IMG/VR virus record: IMGVR_UViG_3300050821_006736
Span: 1 to 32,807 of that record
DNA: 32,807 nucleotides
DNA from: a virus
Reading direction: 5' to 3' (one strand)
The notes beneath the pieces are model-generated. The model saw only the letters and a program-made list of their open reading frames with translations. It made no database searches and was not told where the DNA came from. Position 1 is the first letter of the stretch. Each line of letters starts with the position of its first letter. The translations under genes were made by a program, and so were the position numbers. Of this stretch, positions 1 through 32,320 are shown one piece after another.

Positions 1-887
1 TCTTCCATCGACATGTCGTTCGGGTCTTTCGGCCCGGCTGGATTGCGCGCCTTGAGCGGGACAATCGGGTCCTGCCTTGGCTTTGGCGTGGGGGCTGGCG
101 GAGCTGCGAGTCGAGCGGCGATCTTGCCGACTTCGAAGACCACCATCGCCGGCCTCAACGCCGAGATACGGTCGTGCTCGTCCTGATTCTGGGCGAGGTA
201 GTAGGCGATTGCCGGACCATCTTCAGCTTCCAGAAGCGCCTGACCGAGAACCGGATTGGTGAAGAGGGTTTCCTCGCCGTAAACGACGTCCTCGAAATCC
301 GGGTGGTCGGTCTTGAAGGTGGCGGCCCGCTTCGCATAGGCGGCGGACGCTTCCTTCCAATTGCGCTCTTGTTCGGCCCTGGTCTGCTCGGCCTGCGCCT
401 CTGCCTGAACCACCTTCGCGGTGCGAGCTGCAACCCATGTCTCAAGCGCCTTGTCGTAGGCGTCCGGATCGTCGAAGTTGGCTCGCACGGGGCGGGCCTC
501 ATCTTCTTTCGGTTGTCCGGCTTCGACCAGCTTGGAGACGGTCTCCTGGAGCTTATCGAACCTTGCTAGGATGGCTTGTTCGCGCGCTTCGGCGGCTTGG
601 CGTCTGTTTCGCTCACGAGCAATTACCGCTCGTTGCTGCGGAGAGGTTTTATCCTTCTCCTCACCGGGTGCTTCAGATGGCGTCCCGTCTGCCTCGCCTT
701 CGGGTTTTTGATCCGAAGTGACTGAAGCATCCTCGCTAACCTCGGGCGTGTCAACAGTCTCGGCAGGAGTCTCGATTACCGGCATGTCGGACGTTGCCGA
801 AGTCGGTATTCCGGGGCCGCGATTCAGAGTGTCCGCGCCCGTAATCACGGGTGCGGGGGCGTCATTGGTCATTGGAGCCATCGGCAT
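1..887 (-). CDS. Scaffold-like head assembly protein, C-terminus beyond window
   Basis: The frame stays open from the ATG at 887 to the window edge, giving at least 295 residues, so the C-terminus is missing. The first ~75 residues are acidic and rich in Pro, Thr, Glu and Ser. They are followed by a charged, probably coiled-coil region (RERNRRQAAEAREQAI, then a run rich in Ala, Gln and Glu) and a more globular part. Position directly after the portal gene and this low-complexity helical composition fit phage scaffolding proteins; no catalytic motif is seen. The start overlaps the end of the portal gene by 26 bp. GAAGGA lies about 11 nt before ATG 887; in-frame ATGs at 881 and 872 are alternatives. 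The function is inferred from position and composition. Confidence 0.7.
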   Translation of the reverse strand, partial: MPMAPMTNDAPAPVITGADTLNRGPGIPTSATSDMPVIETPAETVDTPEVSEDASVTSDQKPEGEADGTPSEAPGEEKDKTSPQQRAVIARERNRRQAAEAREQAILARFDKLQETVSKLVEAGQPKEDEARPVRANFDDPDAYDKALETWVAARTAKVVQAEAQAEQTRAEQERNWKEASAAYAKRAATFKTDHPDFEDVVYGEETLFTNPVLGQALLEAEDGPAIAYYLAQNQDEHDRISALRPAMVVFEVGKIAARLAAPPAPTPKPRQDPIVPLKARNPAGPKDPNDMSME

Positions 888-3800
888 TAGGTGGTGTGTC
901 CTTCGATTCCTGTGGCTTGGAAGCTTCTATCGCCGCCATTCCAATCTCGTGGTTGCGCTGGCGTGCATCGCGGATTTCGGCAATGAAAGTATCGGCGACA
1001 AAGCGGGCCTGTTCAACGGCCAGTTTCTTGCCGGTTTCCTCGGTTTTGGCAATAATTCCAAGTAATTTTACCTCAAAATCTGCCGAAATCTTACTCATCG
1101 CAATCTCACGATCAGCGCCCTTGTCGTCGAGCGCCTTCATCGCTTGCTGAAGCTGCTGCTGTAGCTGCTTCGACTGCTGTTCGAGGTTCTGGATGAGGGC
1201 CTGGATCTGCGGTGGGATGTCTTTCAGGTCCGGTGTCAGCATGTTCGCCGGAATGGCCTTGGCAAGGCGGGCGGCAATCTTGTCGGAGCCGGGCCAATCC
1301 ATTTCGGCCGCGATCAGGTCCATCACCAGGGCCGCCGTGTTCGGCATCGCCTTGACGAACGCCATCATCGACTCAGCGCCTTCCTGACGCTTGGTCGCAT
1401 AGGACGGGCCGGCGTCGACCGTCACAGCCCATTCGGCGAAACCCGGATTGAAATAGCGCAGGACGCCCTTCGCGCTTTGGTTCTCCTGGTACGAGGAACC
1501 CAGCAGCGGATCGAGGGTGACGTTCTCCTCCTTGCCGTCCATGCCGAGGATGGTGATGATCTGGCGCCGGTTATAGACCTTGGGAATCGCGTCCACGATC
1601 TGTTTGCCGAGGAATTCGAGTGAGCGGCGGAAATTGTCGTAGTAGTGGAATGCGCCGATGTCGGTGCGGCGGCTCAGTTCCCGCAGCGCCTTGCCCGACT
1701 CGTCGAACATGCGCTCCTGCATGGTGGCGTCGAACCGGATGCCCGTCGTCGCCATCATGTTCTGCTGCGACTGCGCGAGCGCCGCGAGGATGCCGGTCGG
1801 TGCGTCGGGCGGAGGAACCCGCTGGGGCGGCGGCGATGGATGTCCGCTCACGTCGGTAGGCTTGTAGGTCAGGGCCGCTGTCGGAAGACGGTTGACATTC
1901 TTCCACTCTTTTTCGTGGCCTTCTAGTTGACCCTCCTCCATTATGTAGTGTGCTTTAGGTGCGAGGGCGACGTGTTCAGTAAGGAACGTGTTGTGGGTTG
2001 GAACCATAGCCTCGCCAGCCAGAAAGAGATGGCTGGGCGTGTCTACCATGATGCACTTAACCGGAACTGACGGAACACGTTCTACGGACTTGATCGTGAA
2101 TCTCTTCGTTCTACGCCATTGCTCCTGGCATCCGTTGAACTGCCTTCCGAGTTGGCGCTCCCTCTTGAACACCGGCATGTCGTACGGGGCGGTGAACGAG
2201 AATTGCCAGAGATCCTGTCCCTGCGAAAAATATGGATTTCCATTGTTGGCAAAGCGCGCCAACCGGCCCTTCCGCTTAAGCGAAACAGCCTTGATTCCTA
2301 GCGACCTGAGAAGCTCGGAAAACCCCTCGGCGAGGAGAGGTGTAATCGTGCTGAAGCTACACTGGCGTTTGATATCAATCGAGCCGTCAGTGTCCATCAG
2401 ACCGTGCAGCAGATCGAGACGCTGATCTCTCGATGCGCGGAGGTAGGACGCCGGAATGTGTTTGTTCCCAAGCAGCCCCATCTCCCGCATGACGCCCTTC
2501 ACGCCATAAACGGTAAATTTCAAAATCCGGTCGCCGTTCCCCCTCGGCTCTCCAGCATCCACACCGCGCCCGAGCAGATGACGCCGAAGCTCATCGATGT
2601 CGTCATCACCGGGGCTTACCTCCGGAACAATCGCATTTCCGTCCCCGAGCCACAGACCGAGAAAATACGGATCGAGCGGAAGATCGCACTCAGGAAGCTG
2701 AAGCGGCTTTGGCGTCATGACGTAATGCGTCTTTGGCCTTAACGCCTTGGTCTGTACCGTCTCGTTGCGCCACTCAAACCCAGCCGATATTCGTCCGGTA
2801 CGCGTCTCGACTGCCCACAGGTGCTCGGCATCGGCCACAATGCTGGAGCCGTCGTCGAACGTGATCCTGTAACACTCTCGGTGGACGTGGACCGGGCTAC
2901 ACCCGAGTACGGTGGCCGGTTCTCCATTCTCATTGAAAACGGTGTGGCCGGCCTCAATCTCGCCCATCGTAGTCCACCCATTTGGAGTGGGAACAGGCGT
3001 ATTTAGGTCTAGTGGAGCCCAATAATTATCCATACGCTGGGCATCTTTGGAGTCACGAATAATCCCGGAGTACGTAACCTTACCTTCTACGTCGATCTCG
3101 TCACCGATCACCTTTACGATCGGAACCCACTTGCCGATCCACTCCTTGCGCTCAAGGATTTCGATGGCGGTGGCCTTGTAATACATGACCGTAGGATCAA
3201 ACCCCTTGCGCTCGTCGAGCACACGGACATCGCCATTTTTCACCCTGCGCGCGGTCACTTCATCCAGTTCGTCGCGCCAACCGACATAGCCGTTGGAGAG
3301 CGAGACGAGTTCGCGCTCCTTCTCGACGATCTCATAATATTCCACGACCCGGATGCCGTCCTTCGTGCTCCAGGTTCGATAGCTCTCGCCACCGCCACCA
3401 ACTTCGAAGGGGATGAGTTGGGCCTTGGGATATTCGAGCTTGAACTGATCCTCGGGGATCATCTCGGCAACGAAGGCAAAGCGGCAATCGGAGCCGTCCG
3501 GCTCTTGGTGGTCGGGGTCAAGGTAGACAGTGAATGGATTGCGCACCCGCTTGATCACTAGCACCTGATCGAAGCTTTTGGGCGACTTCCACTCGGTCAG
3601 CAGGCGCATGTAGCCCCAACCCGAGGTGACGGCATCGTCGAACGAGCTGTCGTAGGCGATGTCGGCGTGGCTGTCCCGCTCGATACGACGGATCATGCCT
3701 TCGATCATCTGCGCCCCCTCCTTGATCGCGCCGGGGCCAAGGGGGCTGATGTTGATCTGGGGGCGGTTCTCGCGCGCCGGGTTGGTGACCTGATGGACGA

Positions 3801-4170
3801 AGGTCTTCATCCGATTGTTGGTCAGGCAGGGGCGGCGGTCGGTGGCGCGTTGGGCGGCGATGTCGGCCGGCCACTGATCGCCCCGCTTGAATTTGCGATC
3901 CTCGACGGCCGGCTTGCGGTTCTCGGCTTCGGCGGCGATGGATCGTTCCAGCCGCTTCCGGAGGCGCTCCAGGATCTCGGAATCAGCTTCGTCTGAGCCT
4001 TTGTCGTCATCCTTCTCGGCGGGGATGTCTGGTCCAACGGTATCGCCTTTGCCCTCAATAGCCCTGTTATTGGGGCCAAGCTTGTTCATACCAGCGGACG
4101 TCTCTGGCAAGGACAGCTTTCCGCTTTTCTTGGCGCGCGGAGGCGGAGGACTAAGAGGCTGATCGACCAT
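862..4170 (-). CDS. P22-like portal protein interrupted by a class 3 intein
   Basis: The precursor is 1102 aa. Removing residues 386-727 leaves a 760-aa portal, close to the P22 portal (725 aa). Portal proteins form the dodecameric DNA-entry ring at one head vertex and dock the terminase. N-extein landmarks are the FKRGDQW and RPCLTNN regions (about 95-120) and NPFTVYLDPD (211-220). The extein junction rejoins DNYWA to TFLTEHVALAPK, a conserved stretch in this family. The C-terminus (about 985-1060) is a Gln- and Lys-rich coiled coil. The ATG overlaps the upstream stop as ATGA. Portal identity is from recognised family sequence; splicing is inferred from intact intein motifs. Confidence 0.93.
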   Translation of the reverse strand: MVDQPLSPPPPRAKKSGKLSLPETSAGMNKLGPNNRAIEGKGDTVGPDIPAEKDDDKGSDEADSEILERLRKRLERSIAAEAENRKPAVEDRKFKRGDQWPADIAAQRATDRRPCLTNNRMKTFVHQVTNPARENRPQINISPLGPGAIKEGAQMIEGMIRRIERDSHADIAYDSSFDDAVTSGWGYMRLLTEWKSPKSFDQVLVIKRVRNPFTVYLDPDHQEPDGSDCRFAFVAEMIPEDQFKLEYPKAQLIPFEVGGGGESYRTWSTKDGIRVVEYYEIVEKERELVSLSNGYVGWRDELDEVTARRVKNGDVRVLDERKGFDPTVMYYKATAIEILERKEWIGKWVPIVKVIGDEIDVEGKVTYSGIIRDSKDAQRMDNYWAPLDLNTPVPTPNGWTTMGEIEAGHTVFNENGEPATVLGCSPVHVHRECYRITFDDGSSIVADAEHLWAVETRTGRISAGFEWRNETVQTKALRPKTHYVMTPKPLQLPECDLPLDPYFLGLWLGDGNAIVPEVSPGDDDIDELRRHLLGRGVDAGEPRGNGDRILKFTVYGVKGVMREMGLLGNKHIPASYLRASRDQRLDLLHGLMDTDGSIDIKRQCSFSTITPLLAEGFSELLRSLGIKAVSLKRKGRLARFANNGNPYFSQGQDLWQFSFTAPYDMPVFKRERQLGRQFNGCQEQWRRTKRFTIKSVERVPSVPVKCIMVDTPSHLFLAGEAMVPTHNTFLTEHVALAPKAHYIMEEGQLEGHEKEWKNVNRLPTAALTYKPTDVSGHPSPPPQRVPPPDAPTGILAALAQSQQNMMATTGIRFDATMQERMFDESGKALRELSRRTDIGAFHYYDNFRRSLEFLGKQIVDAIPKVYNRRQIITILGMDGKEENVTLDPLLGSSYQENQSAKGVLRYFNPGFAEWAVTVDAGPSYATKRQEGAESMMAFVKAMPNTAALVMDLIAAEMDWPGSDKIAARLAKAIPANMLTPDLKDIPPQIQALIQNLEQQSKQLQQQLQQAMKALDDKGADREIAMSKISADFEVKLLGIIAKTEETGKKLAVEQARFVADTFIAEIRDARQRNHEIGMAAIEASKPQESKDTPPNADGSNDQ
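1990..3015 (-). other. Class 3 intein with LAGLIDADG endonuclease, in portal
   Basis: This 342-residue intein is portal residues Pro386-Asn727. Block A is PLDLNTPVPTPNGW, with Pro rather than Cys/Ser at position 1. Block B (441-454) has His450 and Trp452; block F has Cys706 (VKCIMVD); block G is VPTHN followed by Thr728 at +1. Trp at B:12, Cys at F:4 and Thr at G:5 is the signature of class 3 inteins, which splice through the block F Cys and need no nucleophile at position 1. Two LAGLIDADG-type motifs end in FLGLWLGDG (503-511) and LLHGLMDTDG (587-596), with Asp510 and Asp595 intact. The endonuclease therefore looks active. Confidence 0.92.
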
Positions 4171-6374: not shown

Positions 6375-6580
6375 ATCACCTCTCCCGGTTCACACCCATC
6401 ATCGATCGCCCGCTGCAACGCCTCGATCGCTTCCTGCTTATCGTTGCGCCACTGAGCGCCGTCGACTTTTTCGATGATCACAAAATACTCCGCGCCGTCT
6501 TCATTGGCCATACTGATGCGGGCTGCGTCGACGCCTAGGACGGGAGACCAGTAGAAGAATTCGCTGATCACGCCATCCAT
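6356..6580 (-). CDS. Hypothetical protein following the terminase
   Basis: This 74-aa acidic protein is not recognised. It has a strand-rich first half and a helical end (KQEAIEALQRAIDDGCEPGE). It starts 13 bp inside the terminase gene, so it is likely coupled to it. It could be a short cytoplasmic accessory protein; there is no motif to say more. Confidence 0.6.
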   Translation of the reverse strand: MDGVISEFFYWSPVLGVDAARISMANEDGAEYFVIIEKVDGAQWRNDKQEAIEALQRAIDDGCEPGEVMWRSNC

Positions 6581-8589
6581 CCAGCCGGATCATCGCTCGC
6601 GCCGTAGCTGCGGTCGGCGGCGGGTCTCACGGTCGCGCGGGGTTCCTCGTAATCAAGCGCTGCTAGGCCAAATGAGTCAGAACCGTGTGAGGAGTTTGAG
6701 ACAAGATAAGCGCGGCCATCATCGCCACGGACGAAATAACATTCATCCCTATCGACGGTGAGATTGTAGGCGGGCTCTAGCTCGGTCTTCTCGCGCAAGT
6801 CGCGCCCGGTCGACCTTAACGCACTCCTTGCTGCATCTCGCGCCGAATTGCTGGTAGCATCCGAATTCCTTCCCGCATACGCGACATATGCAAGTGAATC
6901 GTGGCTCGGACTTGTGCTCGCTACGGTGCTCAAAGATGGGCTTAGCTTCGAAATTGCTTGGATGGTTGTTAAATGGATCTTCATCTGCGTGATGAACTTC
7001 ATAACCCTCCGGTATTTCACCATAAACAGCCTCGTACACCACCCGATGAAGGAGCACGGAACATCGCGATTCCTGGCCTCCGCCCCTAGGGTTGCCGAGG
7101 TAATAGCGTCCTTGAAGCCTAAAGACAGTGTCGCAGACCAAAACCCGAGGATGGTCAGGCCCAAGCTTTCTCGGGTCCAAAATTTTTCCCGGAAGCACGC
7201 ACAGTCGGCCGCCTCTATGAGGCCCCGGCTCGTAAAAAATCGGTGTTCTGGCGTGCACTTCACGCCCCTGACCGTCGCCCATTCGTCTGTCATCCGCACT
7301 ATTCCAGACCGAAGAATGCGGCGCGGTCCACAGGGTGTCAAGACATGATCATGAACAGAGAGATCCTGTACGTTCGTCCAGCCGACTGGGGTCAGCACCG
7401 ACGTGTCTCGGGCCAGACACCAATCGTGTTCTGGCCCCAATCCGATCTGCCGGTTGGCGTCGACCCGTTCGTGATAGGCCCCCAATGCCTCGCGCCCAGC
7501 CTGCGTTGCAGCGTCGTTGAACCAGCAGCGAGGGAACAGGCGGCGGGCGGCCTCGACACGGATCACCGCCGCACCTGGACCGCCGCCTTTGCGCACCCGC
7601 ACCCGGAAGTTGGCTTCCTTCAGGTGGTCGCTGAACTTCTTACCCGTCACGGCATTGCGGTGCGCGCCGTCGTGGGGCAGGACGCATTCGGCCTCGCCGT
7701 GGCCGCGCCGTCGCAGCTCGTTCACGTAGTAGCCCAACGGCTGACCCGACCCTTCGATGTAGTCCATGAATCGAAGCTGCTGGCGGATGCGCTGGGTGAT
7801 CCAGATCGTCATCGCATCGTCGATTCCGATGTCCCAATAGGCCTTGCGCTCCAGCAGGGGGTCATAGGCCAGATCGGTGATGCGGCCTTCCTGCTCGGCT
7901 TGGGCGAGGTGGTTGGCGAAATAGGCGCCGGCGACGACCGTGGCATATGCGCCTTCCCAGACGTGCTGATAGCTCGGCGAGTATTTCAGATCGTATTCGC
8001 GCTCCTCCTTCATTTCCTGTGGGAGGAAAGGGTTATCGCTCCAGTTTGTTTTGACGACAATGGATCTGTCCGGCGGCGGAATTCCGGGTGTACGGAACAG
8101 GGCGTCGACAGCATCCGACTTGCGGTGCGGGTTCCAGGTAAAGATGAGTTTCGATCCCGGCTTCCGGATCGTCGGTCGGAGAAGTTGAAGGCTGCGGGCG
8201 CTCATATTGTGGGCTTCCTCAACCCACACGAGGTCGAATCCCTCATAGGATTTGATGCTCTCGCTCGTCTGATTGTTCATTCCCTGGAAGACGATGCGAC
8301 CGCCGCCAGGGGTGCGGATCTCATCGTCCAAGACACGAAATCCTGGCGCTTTGAACTCCTCGATCTTGTCTTCGATGAGCTGCTTGGCGGACTCCCGCAG
8401 AGCCTTCTGCACCTCACGGGTACAGAGCACGCGGGTTCCGCGCTGCATGAAACTTTGCTCGACAGTGAATCCGGCGGCGAACTGCGATTTGGCGCCTGCA
8501 CGACCGCCGTAAATCCCCGCGTACCGGAATGGCTGTAGGAGCGGTTCGAACACCCTTGCGGTGGGGATGTTTAGCTTCTTTTCGCTCAC
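6568..8589 (-). CDS. terL: Large terminase subunit interrupted by an intein
   Basis: The precursor is 673 aa; without residues 391-632 it is 431 aa, a normal size for this packaging motor. The ATPase domain has Walker A YGGRAGAKS (27-35) and Walker B LVWVEEA (120-126). The nuclease domain has YWDIGIDDA with Asp253, and a C-terminal HDW/SSHGSD motif whose Asp638 is in the C-extein. The intein sits exactly in this motif, so the nuclease site is complete only after splicing. The GTG start at 8589 overlaps the stop of an upstream 9-codon reading frame as GTGA. It pumps DNA through the portal encoded downstream. Confidence 0.95.
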   Translation of the reverse strand: MSEKKLNIPTARVFEPLLQPFRYAGIYGGRAGAKSQFAAGFTVEQSFMQRGTRVLCTREVQKALRESAKQLIEDKIEEFKAPGFRVLDDEIRTPGGGRIVFQGMNNQTSESIKSYEGFDLVWVEEAHNMSARSLQLLRPTIRKPGSKLIFTWNPHRKSDAVDALFRTPGIPPPDRSIVVKTNWSDNPFLPQEMKEEREYDLKYSPSYQHVWEGAYATVVAGAYFANHLAQAEQEGRITDLAYDPLLERKAYWDIGIDDAMTIWITQRIRQQLRFMDYIEGSGQPLGYYVNELRRRGHGEAECVLPHDGAHRNAVTGKKFSDHLKEANFRVRVRKGGGPGAAVIRVEAARRLFPRCWFNDAATQAGREALGAYHERVDANRQIGLGPEHDWCLARDTSVLTPVGWTNVQDLSVHDHVLTPCGPRRILRSGIVRMTDEWATVRGVKCTPEHRFFTSRGLIEAADCACFREKFWTRESLGLTILGFWSATLSLGFKDAITSATLGAEARNRDVPCSFIGWCTRLFMVKYRRVMKFITQMKIHLTTIQAISKLSPSLSTVASTSPSHDSLAYVAYAGRNSDATSNSARDAARSALRSTGRDLREKTELEPAYNLTVDRDECYFVRGDDGRAYLVSNSSHGSDSFGLAALDYEEPRATVRPAADRSYGASDDPAGWMA
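6694..7419 (-). other. Intein in terminase, endonuclease displaced to another frame
   Basis: This intein is terminase residues Cys391-Asn632. Block A is CLARDTSVLTPVGWTNV, block B is GVKCTPEHRFFTSRG with Thr446 and His449, block F is around YNLTVDRDECYFV and block G ends AYLVSN before Ser633. The penultimate residue is Ser rather than the usual His. Between blocks B and F the zero-frame protein (about 464-604) resembles nothing, while the -1 frame of the same DNA encodes an HNH endonuclease. Splicing joins HDW to SSHGSD. The splicing domains look functional, but the noncanonical Ser631 makes this less certain than for the portal intein. Confidence 0.88.
6749..7282 (-). CDS. HNH homing endonuclease nested out of frame in the terminase intein
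   Basis: The open frame is 177 aa, in the -1 frame relative to terL and wholly inside its intein. The recognisable part is about residues 29-163: a strand region with VFRLQGRYYLG, LLHRVVYEAVYG (His79), EGYEVHHADEDPFNN (His97, His98, Asn105/106), then a zinc-ribbon-like C-x-C-x2-C and C-x3-C (Cys131-154). This is the HNH fold of phage homing endonucleases. Residues 1-28 are a shadow of intein block B. Candidate starts are ATG 7282, GTG 7258 (AGGGG 6 nt upstream) and TTG 7180. Either it is a separately translated nested gene, or two compensating indels moved it out of the intein frame. Confidence 0.82.
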   Translation of the reverse strand: MGDGQGREVHARTPIFYEPGPHRGGRLCVLPGKILDPRKLGPDHPRVLVCDTVFRLQGRYYLGNPRGGGQESRCSVLLHRVVYEAVYGEIPEGYEVHHADEDPFNNHPSNFEAKPIFEHRSEHKSEPRFTCICRVCGKEFGCYQQFGARCSKECVKVDRARLAREDRARARLQSHRR

Positions 8590-30979: not shown

Positions 30980-31140
30980 AAGTCACCTACCAGGATTGCT
31001 CCGCCTGCGTTAACCGGGTTCTGATCGAGGAAGATCCGGTCAGATGGATATGCAAGGCGCAGGGATTCCTGGTCGGCAACAAGGTCATCAACTGCAAAAA
31101 GTTCAAGCAGAGAAAATCTCTCACTTCAGGTGCGAAATAA
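30976..31140 (+). CDS. Small Cys-containing protein (54 aa)
   Basis: The product begins MKVTYQDCSACVNRVLIEED and has a C-x2-C and a basic end (NCKKFKQRKSLTSGAK). ATGA overlap with the previous gene. Its last 20 bp overlap the end of the convergent leftward gene. Confidence 0.6.
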   Translation: MKVTYQDCSACVNRVLIEEDPVRWICKAQGFLVGNKVINCKKFKQRKSLTSGAK

Positions 31141-32302
31141 AATACACCAGCACCCCTGAGAGCACCGACGACACCAGCCCGACCACCATCAGCATCAGCG
31201 GCATAGACAGGCCATCTCGCCCGCCGTCCGCAGCGGATTGTCTCTCAAGCATCGATAGACGGGCTTCGACAGCCTTGAAATTGGCGTCCACGATTTCGAT
31301 GGTGGCAAACCGGGCCTGCTGATCGCTTACCATTCCGCGCAGCTCGTTCAGGCCCTCTAGCCTTTTTTCTGTGGCCCCCTCTGCTTTGCTGTTATGCATA
31401 CAGAATCCGCCGGCTATATAGGTAGACGTGGAAGTTCCTAGTGTGGCAATTGTGTCGATTCCGGCACCCTCTATGGATGTAACGATTACGTCTCGGTGCC
31501 ACCCCCCAATAGGACGCCCCTCCCATACCGACCTCGCCTTGGCCAATAATCTTTGCGGACGGATGCTTCCAAGAAGGAATAAAATCTCGTTTCTAATATT
31601 TATCTGCCACTCGACGGTTGGTTTTGCGTTTAGCGACAAGCGATAATTTGGTTTTTTATGTATGGTGTGATAAGCGCTAACGCGCTTAGCTAATGATTCC
31701 GAAATTTTATCGCATACGATACCTTCCGTTTGAACCACGCCAAGCCTCGCTCGGCCATTGCGGTCACTTTTAAAGGTTAGGCACCCCTCTCCGTCAAAAA
31801 TTCCGGCAAGCCACCCGGCCTCCCACGAATTATCAACATCCCATACGTCGTAAGCTCTCATAACAGCGTCGCCAACACGTATAAGGCTAGCTTTGACCCA
31901 TCTCCATTTAGAGTCGTGGTCTTGGCGATAAACTAACCATGGATGATCATAGGTACATCTCACAGATCCCGCTTGTGTGTTCACCTGAAGAAGCGGAGCT
32001 TTCTCTATGCCATTTGAAGTGACAATTGCCATTCTGTGTAGCCGACCGCGAGAAGCAATCATTCCGGATTGTCTAGGCGCAGGCTCTTCATCAAAGGCTA
32101 TCAATTCATCCCCAACGGATAGAGATCCCGCCGCCCTCCACACTAAGTCGGCGCATAACACTGGAGTGTCAGACGAAACGCAAACCGCCTTCTCAGCGGC
32201 CTGAAGCGCAATTTCTGCGCGGTCCTTCTGGGCTGAAATTTGCTCGGTGAGACGTAGCGAGAGCGCGTCGATTCTATCACGCGCGATGTCGTCGATTGCC
32301 AC
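31121..32302 (-). CDS. Coiled-coil membrane protein interrupted by an intein
   Basis: The precursor is 393 aa. The N-extein (40 aa) is helical, ending EIALQAAEKAV; the C-extein (89 aa) begins SKAEGATEKRLEGLNELRGM, continues as a coiled coil and ends in a transmembrane helix (MLMVVGLVSSVLSGVLVYFI, about the last 25 residues). Joined, the 129-aa protein matches a common phage family with an AAEKAVSKAE-ATEKR coiled coil and C-terminal membrane anchor, often near tail or lysis genes; its function is not known. GTG 32302 has GGAGCG 6 nt upstream; GTG 32314 is an alternative. It overlaps the convergent gene at 31140 by 20 bp. Confidence 0.88.
   Translation of the reverse strand: MAIDDIARDRIDALSLRLTEQISAQKDRAEIALQAAEKAVCVSSDTPVLCADLVWRAAGSLSVGDELIAFDEEPAPRQSGMIASRGRLHRMAIVTSNGIEKAPLLQVNTQAGSVRCTYDHPWLVYRQDHDSKWRWVKASLIRVGDAVMRAYDVWDVDNSWEAGWLAGIFDGEGCLTFKSDRNGRARLGVVQTEGIVCDKISESLAKRVSAYHTIHKKPNYRLSLNAKPTVEWQINIRNEILFLLGSIRPQRLLAKARSVWEGRPIGGWHRDVIVTSIEGAGIDTIATLGTSTSTYIAGGFCMHNSKAEGATEKRLEGLNELRGMVSDQQARFATIEIVDANFKAVEARLSMLERQSAADGGRDGLSMPLMLMVVGLVSSVLSGVLVYFISHLK
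31391..32182 (-). other. Intein with single-motif LAGLIDADG endonuclease
   Basis: 264 residues, Cys1 to the final Asn, followed by Ser. Block A is CVSSDTPVLC, block B has RCTYDHPWLVY, and the C-terminus is GGFCMHN with the usual His-Asn. One LAGLIDADG motif is clear (EAGWLAGIFDGEGCLT), and FLLGSIRPQRLL matches the conserved later segment of single-motif, dimer-forming enzymes. This differs from the two-motif endonuclease in the portal intein. All splice residues look intact. Confidence 0.92.
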
Positions 32303-32320
32303 CGCGCGCTCCACTTTGGT

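Follow-up and report, generated by a model that had tools for sequence, protein, structure and literature searches.

The terminase large subunit gene (terL) considered here lies in the virus record IMGVR_UViG_3300050821_006736 of IMG/VR, of which positions 1 to 32,807 were analysed (32,807 nucleotides, the window). It contains an insert that, judging by its sequence blocks and its predicted fold, is a Hint intein in the terL frame. The same DNA also encodes an HNH nuclease in the -1 frame (Table 1). Neither of the two open reading frames (ORFs) is broken.

Table 1. Features of the terL locus in the window.
Feature	Positions	Strand	Details
terL ORF (terminase large subunit)	6568..8589	-	673 codons plus stop, stop-free through the intein; Pfam Terminase_3, 1.1e-25
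N-extein of terL	7420..8589	-	C-terminal end ...GLGPEHDW
Intein (terL residues 391-632)	6694..7419	-	242 codons; C391 first, N632 last, S633 next
Intein splicing blocks, terL frame	6694..7419	-	Block A C1; block B TPEH (residues 56-59); block F AYNLTVDRDECYF; block G YLVSN
N-terminal splicing half	7190..7419	-	Substitutions on third positions of the terL frame
Stretch with protein-level constraint in the HNH frame only	6795..7190	-	terL frame stop-free
C-terminal splicing half	6694..6794	-	Constraint again in the terL frame
C-extein of terL	6571..6693	-	Starts SSHGSDSFGL
HNH endonuclease ORF	6749..7282	-	177 codons plus stop; -1 relative to terL
Candidate HNH start codon	7280..7282	-	ATG; Shine-Dalgarno pairing weak (-3.3 kcal/mol)
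HNH_3 catalytic core (HNH residues 77-114)	6941..7054	-	Pfam HNH_3
Cysteine cluster CICRVC...CSKEC (HNH residues 131-154)	6821..6892	-	Zinc-finger-like

The terL frame retains the splicing blocks A, B, F and G and has nothing recognisable between them, as the first-pass annotation had proposed. Viral-contig scans identify ten complete relatives of the element with the same geometry in other terL genes, as well as one truncated relative (L036). The nucleophile C1 and the TPEH of block B are both invariant in 11 sequences, and the last intein residue, Asn242, is followed by Ser, in agreement with the C-terminal Asn plus Cys, Ser or Thr of inteins. The penultimate residue is Ser or Ala, where His is usual. 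A penultimate His is common in inteins but is not required for splicing. The AlphaFold2 model of the intein has confident Hint strands at both ends and a disordered middle, with a predicted local distance difference test score (pLDDT) below 50 at residues 112-121 and 160-211, and most of the region between the blocks scores low. Nine PDB inteins match the model at E <= 0.001, and the matches include the MchDnaB-1, M. smegmatis DnaB and gp41-1 inteins (E of about 5e-5 to 3e-4 for MchDnaB-1 and gp41-1). A Pfam search of the terL frame between the splicing blocks gives no family match, HNH included. An intron was also considered as the identity of the insert and was rejected, given that there is no Rfam match in the window, that the terL frame is open, and that a protein Hint fold is present.

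The -1 frame encodes an intact HNH nuclease, a claim of the first-pass annotation that is borne out at the same position. The Pfam HNH_3 match covers residues 77-114 (E=2.3e-12, 46.8 bits against a cut-off of 24.8). Residues H79, H97, H98, N105 and N110 and four of the zinc-type cysteines (C133, C136, C150 and C154) are invariant in 18 nested relatives. The predicted structure of the HNH-frame protein has a mean pLDDT of 80, and its best solved-structure match is the HNH homing endonuclease I-HmuI, the match being weak (E 0.1, probability 0.90).

The first relative to be found, in a viral-contig scan with the HNH protein, was L002, whose terL has the same intein and the same out-of-frame HNH. 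The -1 frame might not have been conserved in homologues, but it is kept in all ten relatives, whose terL exteins fall to 38% identity with that of the window. Adjoining segments of the intein are under opposite constraint. At intein residues 1 to about 75 and about 210-242 the changes fall at third positions of terL codons, and in the middle of the intein they fall at second positions of terL codons, corresponding to third positions in the HNH frame (11 of 11 sequences in both cases). In the HNH core, the 11 close sequences differ by 0.23, 0.17 and 0.46 per site at HNH codon positions 1, 2 and 3, and mean identity is 73.5% in the HNH frame versus 48.6% in the terL frame. Chi-square tests on single pairs yield p values of 3e-4 to 9e-9. 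By this codon-position test the HNH ORF is under purifying selection. The constraint switches near 7,190 and 6,795, close to the 7,190 and 6,780 at which the first-pass annotation had placed the frame-change points.

The arrangement is not confined to close relatives. A census scan of viral contigs, with three distant nested HNHs as queries, returned 80 loci. In 63 of these (47 non-redundant) a longer unbroken ORF has the HNH in its -1 frame; in one (L124) the HNH is nested in the +1 frame, and in none is it in frame. An N-intein scan that is independent of the HNH gives 27 loci, 20 of which, judged by reading the frames, have a -1 HNH. Most of the host ORFs are terminases, and 51 of 54 have a Pfam intein domain match. 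In L008 the nested HNH lies within the intein of a tape-measure/NlpC-P60 gene, and in L025 the host is a methylase without an intein match, which resembles the ShiLan element (see below). Similar loci are present in bacterial and archaeal genome bins. The nested HNH lacks an annotated nuclease feature in Tetrasphaera TJE1, Acinetobacter Highwayman and Rhodobacteraceae LS06-2018-MD07. Comparison with related inteins finds no in-frame HNH in the terL family. The one in-frame HNH intein found belongs to a ribonucleotide reductase of an Armatimonadetes bin (L167, 1133-1324), and L124 (2501-3016) is the only intein ORF found with its HNH in the +1 frame.

Related HNH genes also occur outside the nested arrangement. 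Split terL inteins have a non-nested HNH, or a close relative of one, between their halves in at least nine loci (L060, L099, L103, L111, L153, L156, L159, L163 and L164, with only the C half matched in L153). In the split layout the ORF with the N-intein ends, the HNH gene follows, and a separate ORF encodes the C-intein and the terL C-terminus. The terL gene appears to be split in this way in L060 (Lactobacillus phage CL2), L099, L103, L111, L156, L159 and L257 (Vibrio phage 1.238.A). Free-standing relatives of the HNH adjoin terL in PAE1 (L260), SN1 (L261) and PhiSTP1 (L259), and one lies just upstream of terS-terL in BP10 (L258); in these four phages terL is annotated without an intein. 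In a weakly supported HNH tree the nested and non-nested forms interleave with 15 changes, at least three of which are forced by well-supported branches.

The element also appears to be mobile. The uninterrupted site GPEHDW-(S/A)SH is present in 80 related terL loci of viral contigs, and intein-free relatives are common. Between the window and L002 the exteins are 40% identical, the N-inteins 67% and the HNHs 69%. Conversely, L033 and L042 share 98% of their exteins and 79% of the N-intein. Such discordant intein and extein histories indicate, from sequence comparison, that the element moves between terL lineages. In L075, L076 and L158 the nested HNH frame contains stops and the host frame is intact, which is likely the decay stage expected in a homing cycle. 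L002 and L004 have exteins that are 98% identical and N-inteins that are 96% identical, whereas HNH identity is only 80%, a possible sign that HNHs are exchanged within an intein.

Taken together, the locus is best explained as a dual-coding intein, in which an intein spliced from the terL frame overlaps an independent HNH homing endonuclease gene in the -1 frame (probability roughly 0.8). The insert would be translated within the terminase precursor, where its two Hint halves fold, and the intein should then splice out and restore TerL. The long middle of the intein would be a passenger linker, with the exclusion of stop codons as its only evident requirement. The HNH nuclease would cut intein-free terL at GPEHDW-SSH, and repair would then copy the intein in. 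A separate nuclease gene overprinted on an intein was one of two origins offered by the first-pass annotation, and it gains support from the codon-position analysis, the start codon kept at the head of the HNH frame and the recurrence in many inteins.

The HNH is most likely translated separately, from an internal start codon inside the N-terminal intein half. An ATG (GTG in L043) occurs at or near the HNH start position in 12 of 12 close sequences, and in L002 it is immediately preceded by TAA. In most cases a start codon is found at the beginning of the HNH domain or close to it, and many loci have an HNH frame that becomes open just 0-10 codons ahead of the domain, with an ATG there or nearby. 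Shine-Dalgarno pairing at or below -6 kcal/mol accompanies 31% of the chosen starts versus 14% of controls (p about 0.001). Internal initiation is favoured with moderate confidence.

Several observations weigh against the dual-coding interpretation. Both the window and its close family have a weak ribosome site ahead of the nuclease start (about -3.3 kcal/mol), and a promoter scan around the locus reveals no promoter-like site. Conservation of the start codon is weak evidence, since the codon is in part a by-product of a Trp codon conserved in the intein frame. The efficiency of splicing is uncertain because Ser, and not the usual His, precedes the last Asn. The discordance between intein and extein reflects horizontal movement and does not prove that the HNH nuclease caused it. 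The stop counts favour dual coding but carry a caveat: synonymous shuffling predicts 99 host-frame stops in 57 nested HNH genes and none is seen, a figure that overstates the test because the nested set was picked for an open host frame. Given this preselection, the weight rests on the unconditioned 63 of 80 loci and on the calibrated control of 17 non-nested relatives, in which 99 stops are seen versus 98.7 predicted. The -1 phase is also the stop-poor phase for these HNH genes, which may explain the preference for it.

Other explanations seem unlikely. The best placed among them is that the HNH nuclease is made and does not home, serving the phage in another role such as DNA packaging, like some HNH proteins beside terL. 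HNH proteins have been reported as packaging components (Kala et al. 2014, as cited in PMC12613952), and the position of the free-standing relatives next to terL, or just upstream of terS-terL, would suit such a role. The nested HNH, however, travels with its intein, is also found in the intein of a tape-measure/NlpC-P60 gene, and decays in three loci without loss of the intein frame, a pattern that fits a homing enzyme better than an essential packaging factor.

Slightly less probable is programmed -1 ribosomal frameshifting from the intein frame, which would yield a fusion of N-extein, N-intein and HNH and no separate protein. Nearly all nested cases share the -1 phase that it requires, and in-phase slippery heptamers have a slightly higher density in the permissive stretch than upstream of it (9 of 1573 versus 46 of 19885 positions). 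A slippery site is nevertheless found in only 7 of 52 non-redundant cases, a count that leaves the window aside, so frameshifting is rejected as a general route; the window sequence, read by eye, has no canonical slippery site. The short lead of the HNH frame ahead of its domain in many loci, with its nearby ATG, also speaks for a start of its own, and the -1 bias may be accounted for by the scarcity of stops in that phase.

It is very improbable that two recent compensating indels, or an assembly error, displaced the nuclease of a normally in-frame HNH intein and left it as a relic: an in-frame HNH intein exists in L167, and the two points at which constraint switches frame are what a pair of indels would produce, but ten relatives and dozens of distant inteins are in the same out-of-frame state, nearly always -1, the HNH is under purifying selection across deep splits, and no in-frame relative is found in the terL family. 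Neither a sequencing error nor a recent pair of indels can yield the frame-switching substitution pattern, and both are dismissed as its cause, as is the first-pass suggestion that compensating one-base changes dislodged an in-frame nuclease.

Dual-coding inteins are probably a class of mobile element that is widespread and has yet to be described, with members in phage terminases and some other genes and with evolutionary links to split inteins and to the free-standing HNH genes that adjoin terL. Dozens of unrelated phages have such overprinting in the -1 frame, by which a mobile element seems to conceal the gene for its own spread, a strategy that has apparently been overlooked. In descriptions of inteins that have a homing endonuclease, a single polypeptide performs both functions. 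When the functions are in two frames, the intein may pass for a mini-intein or a degenerate one while annotation misses an intact nuclease. The nested and split forms also constitute a natural experiment on overlapping genes, as they differ mainly in the need for an open host frame, and together the forms suggest how free-standing homing genes, split inteins and full inteins might be converted into one another.

The phage fragment carries up to three inteins. A P22-like portal gene (862-4170, minus strand) contains a separate intein that has an in-frame LAGLIDADG domain, and a third intein-like insertion (31121-32314, minus strand) has a LAGLIDADG-like motif in frame and weak Pfam matches.

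Among the published cases found, the ShiLan element comes nearest: its HNH insertion is out of frame, lacks intein or intron features and is thought to be retained in the protein (PMC11855218). As in terL, its HNH lies out of frame in an insertion whose host frame is stop-free. It differs in having no self-splicing domain, whereas the terL insert is a Hint intein by sequence, so that splicing could restore the host protein. A search of open-licence full-text literature found no report of an intein with a homing endonuclease encoded out of frame within it; papers behind subscriptions lie outside that search and may hold an earlier description. In group I introns with an out-of-frame HNH gene, I-HmuI for example, the endonuclease gene is likewise independent of the host frame, but these introns splice at the RNA level, while the terL insert has an open host frame and a protein Hint fold, and the window lacks an Rfam match. 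Inteins with in-frame endonucleases, such as L167 and the LAGLIDADG intein of the window portal gene, also have Hint halves around a homing endonuclease, which in those cases is a domain of the intein protein and in the terL intein occupies a separate frame. Fractured genes, in which split inteins have a homing endonuclease gene between their halves, were reportedly described by Dassa et al. in 2009. PolB of Pseudomonas phage MIJ3 is a split intein of this layout with an HNH gene between the halves (PMC6892783). These share with the terL element an independent HNH gene between the N and C intein halves, and the same HNH family is found in this position in CL2, apparently in 1.238.A, and in several contigs. 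In the split systems the host ORF is broken, which leaves stops free to accumulate in that frame of the HNH gene, and trans-splicing is needed, whereas the terL ORF of the window is continuous and overlaps the HNH gene in another frame.
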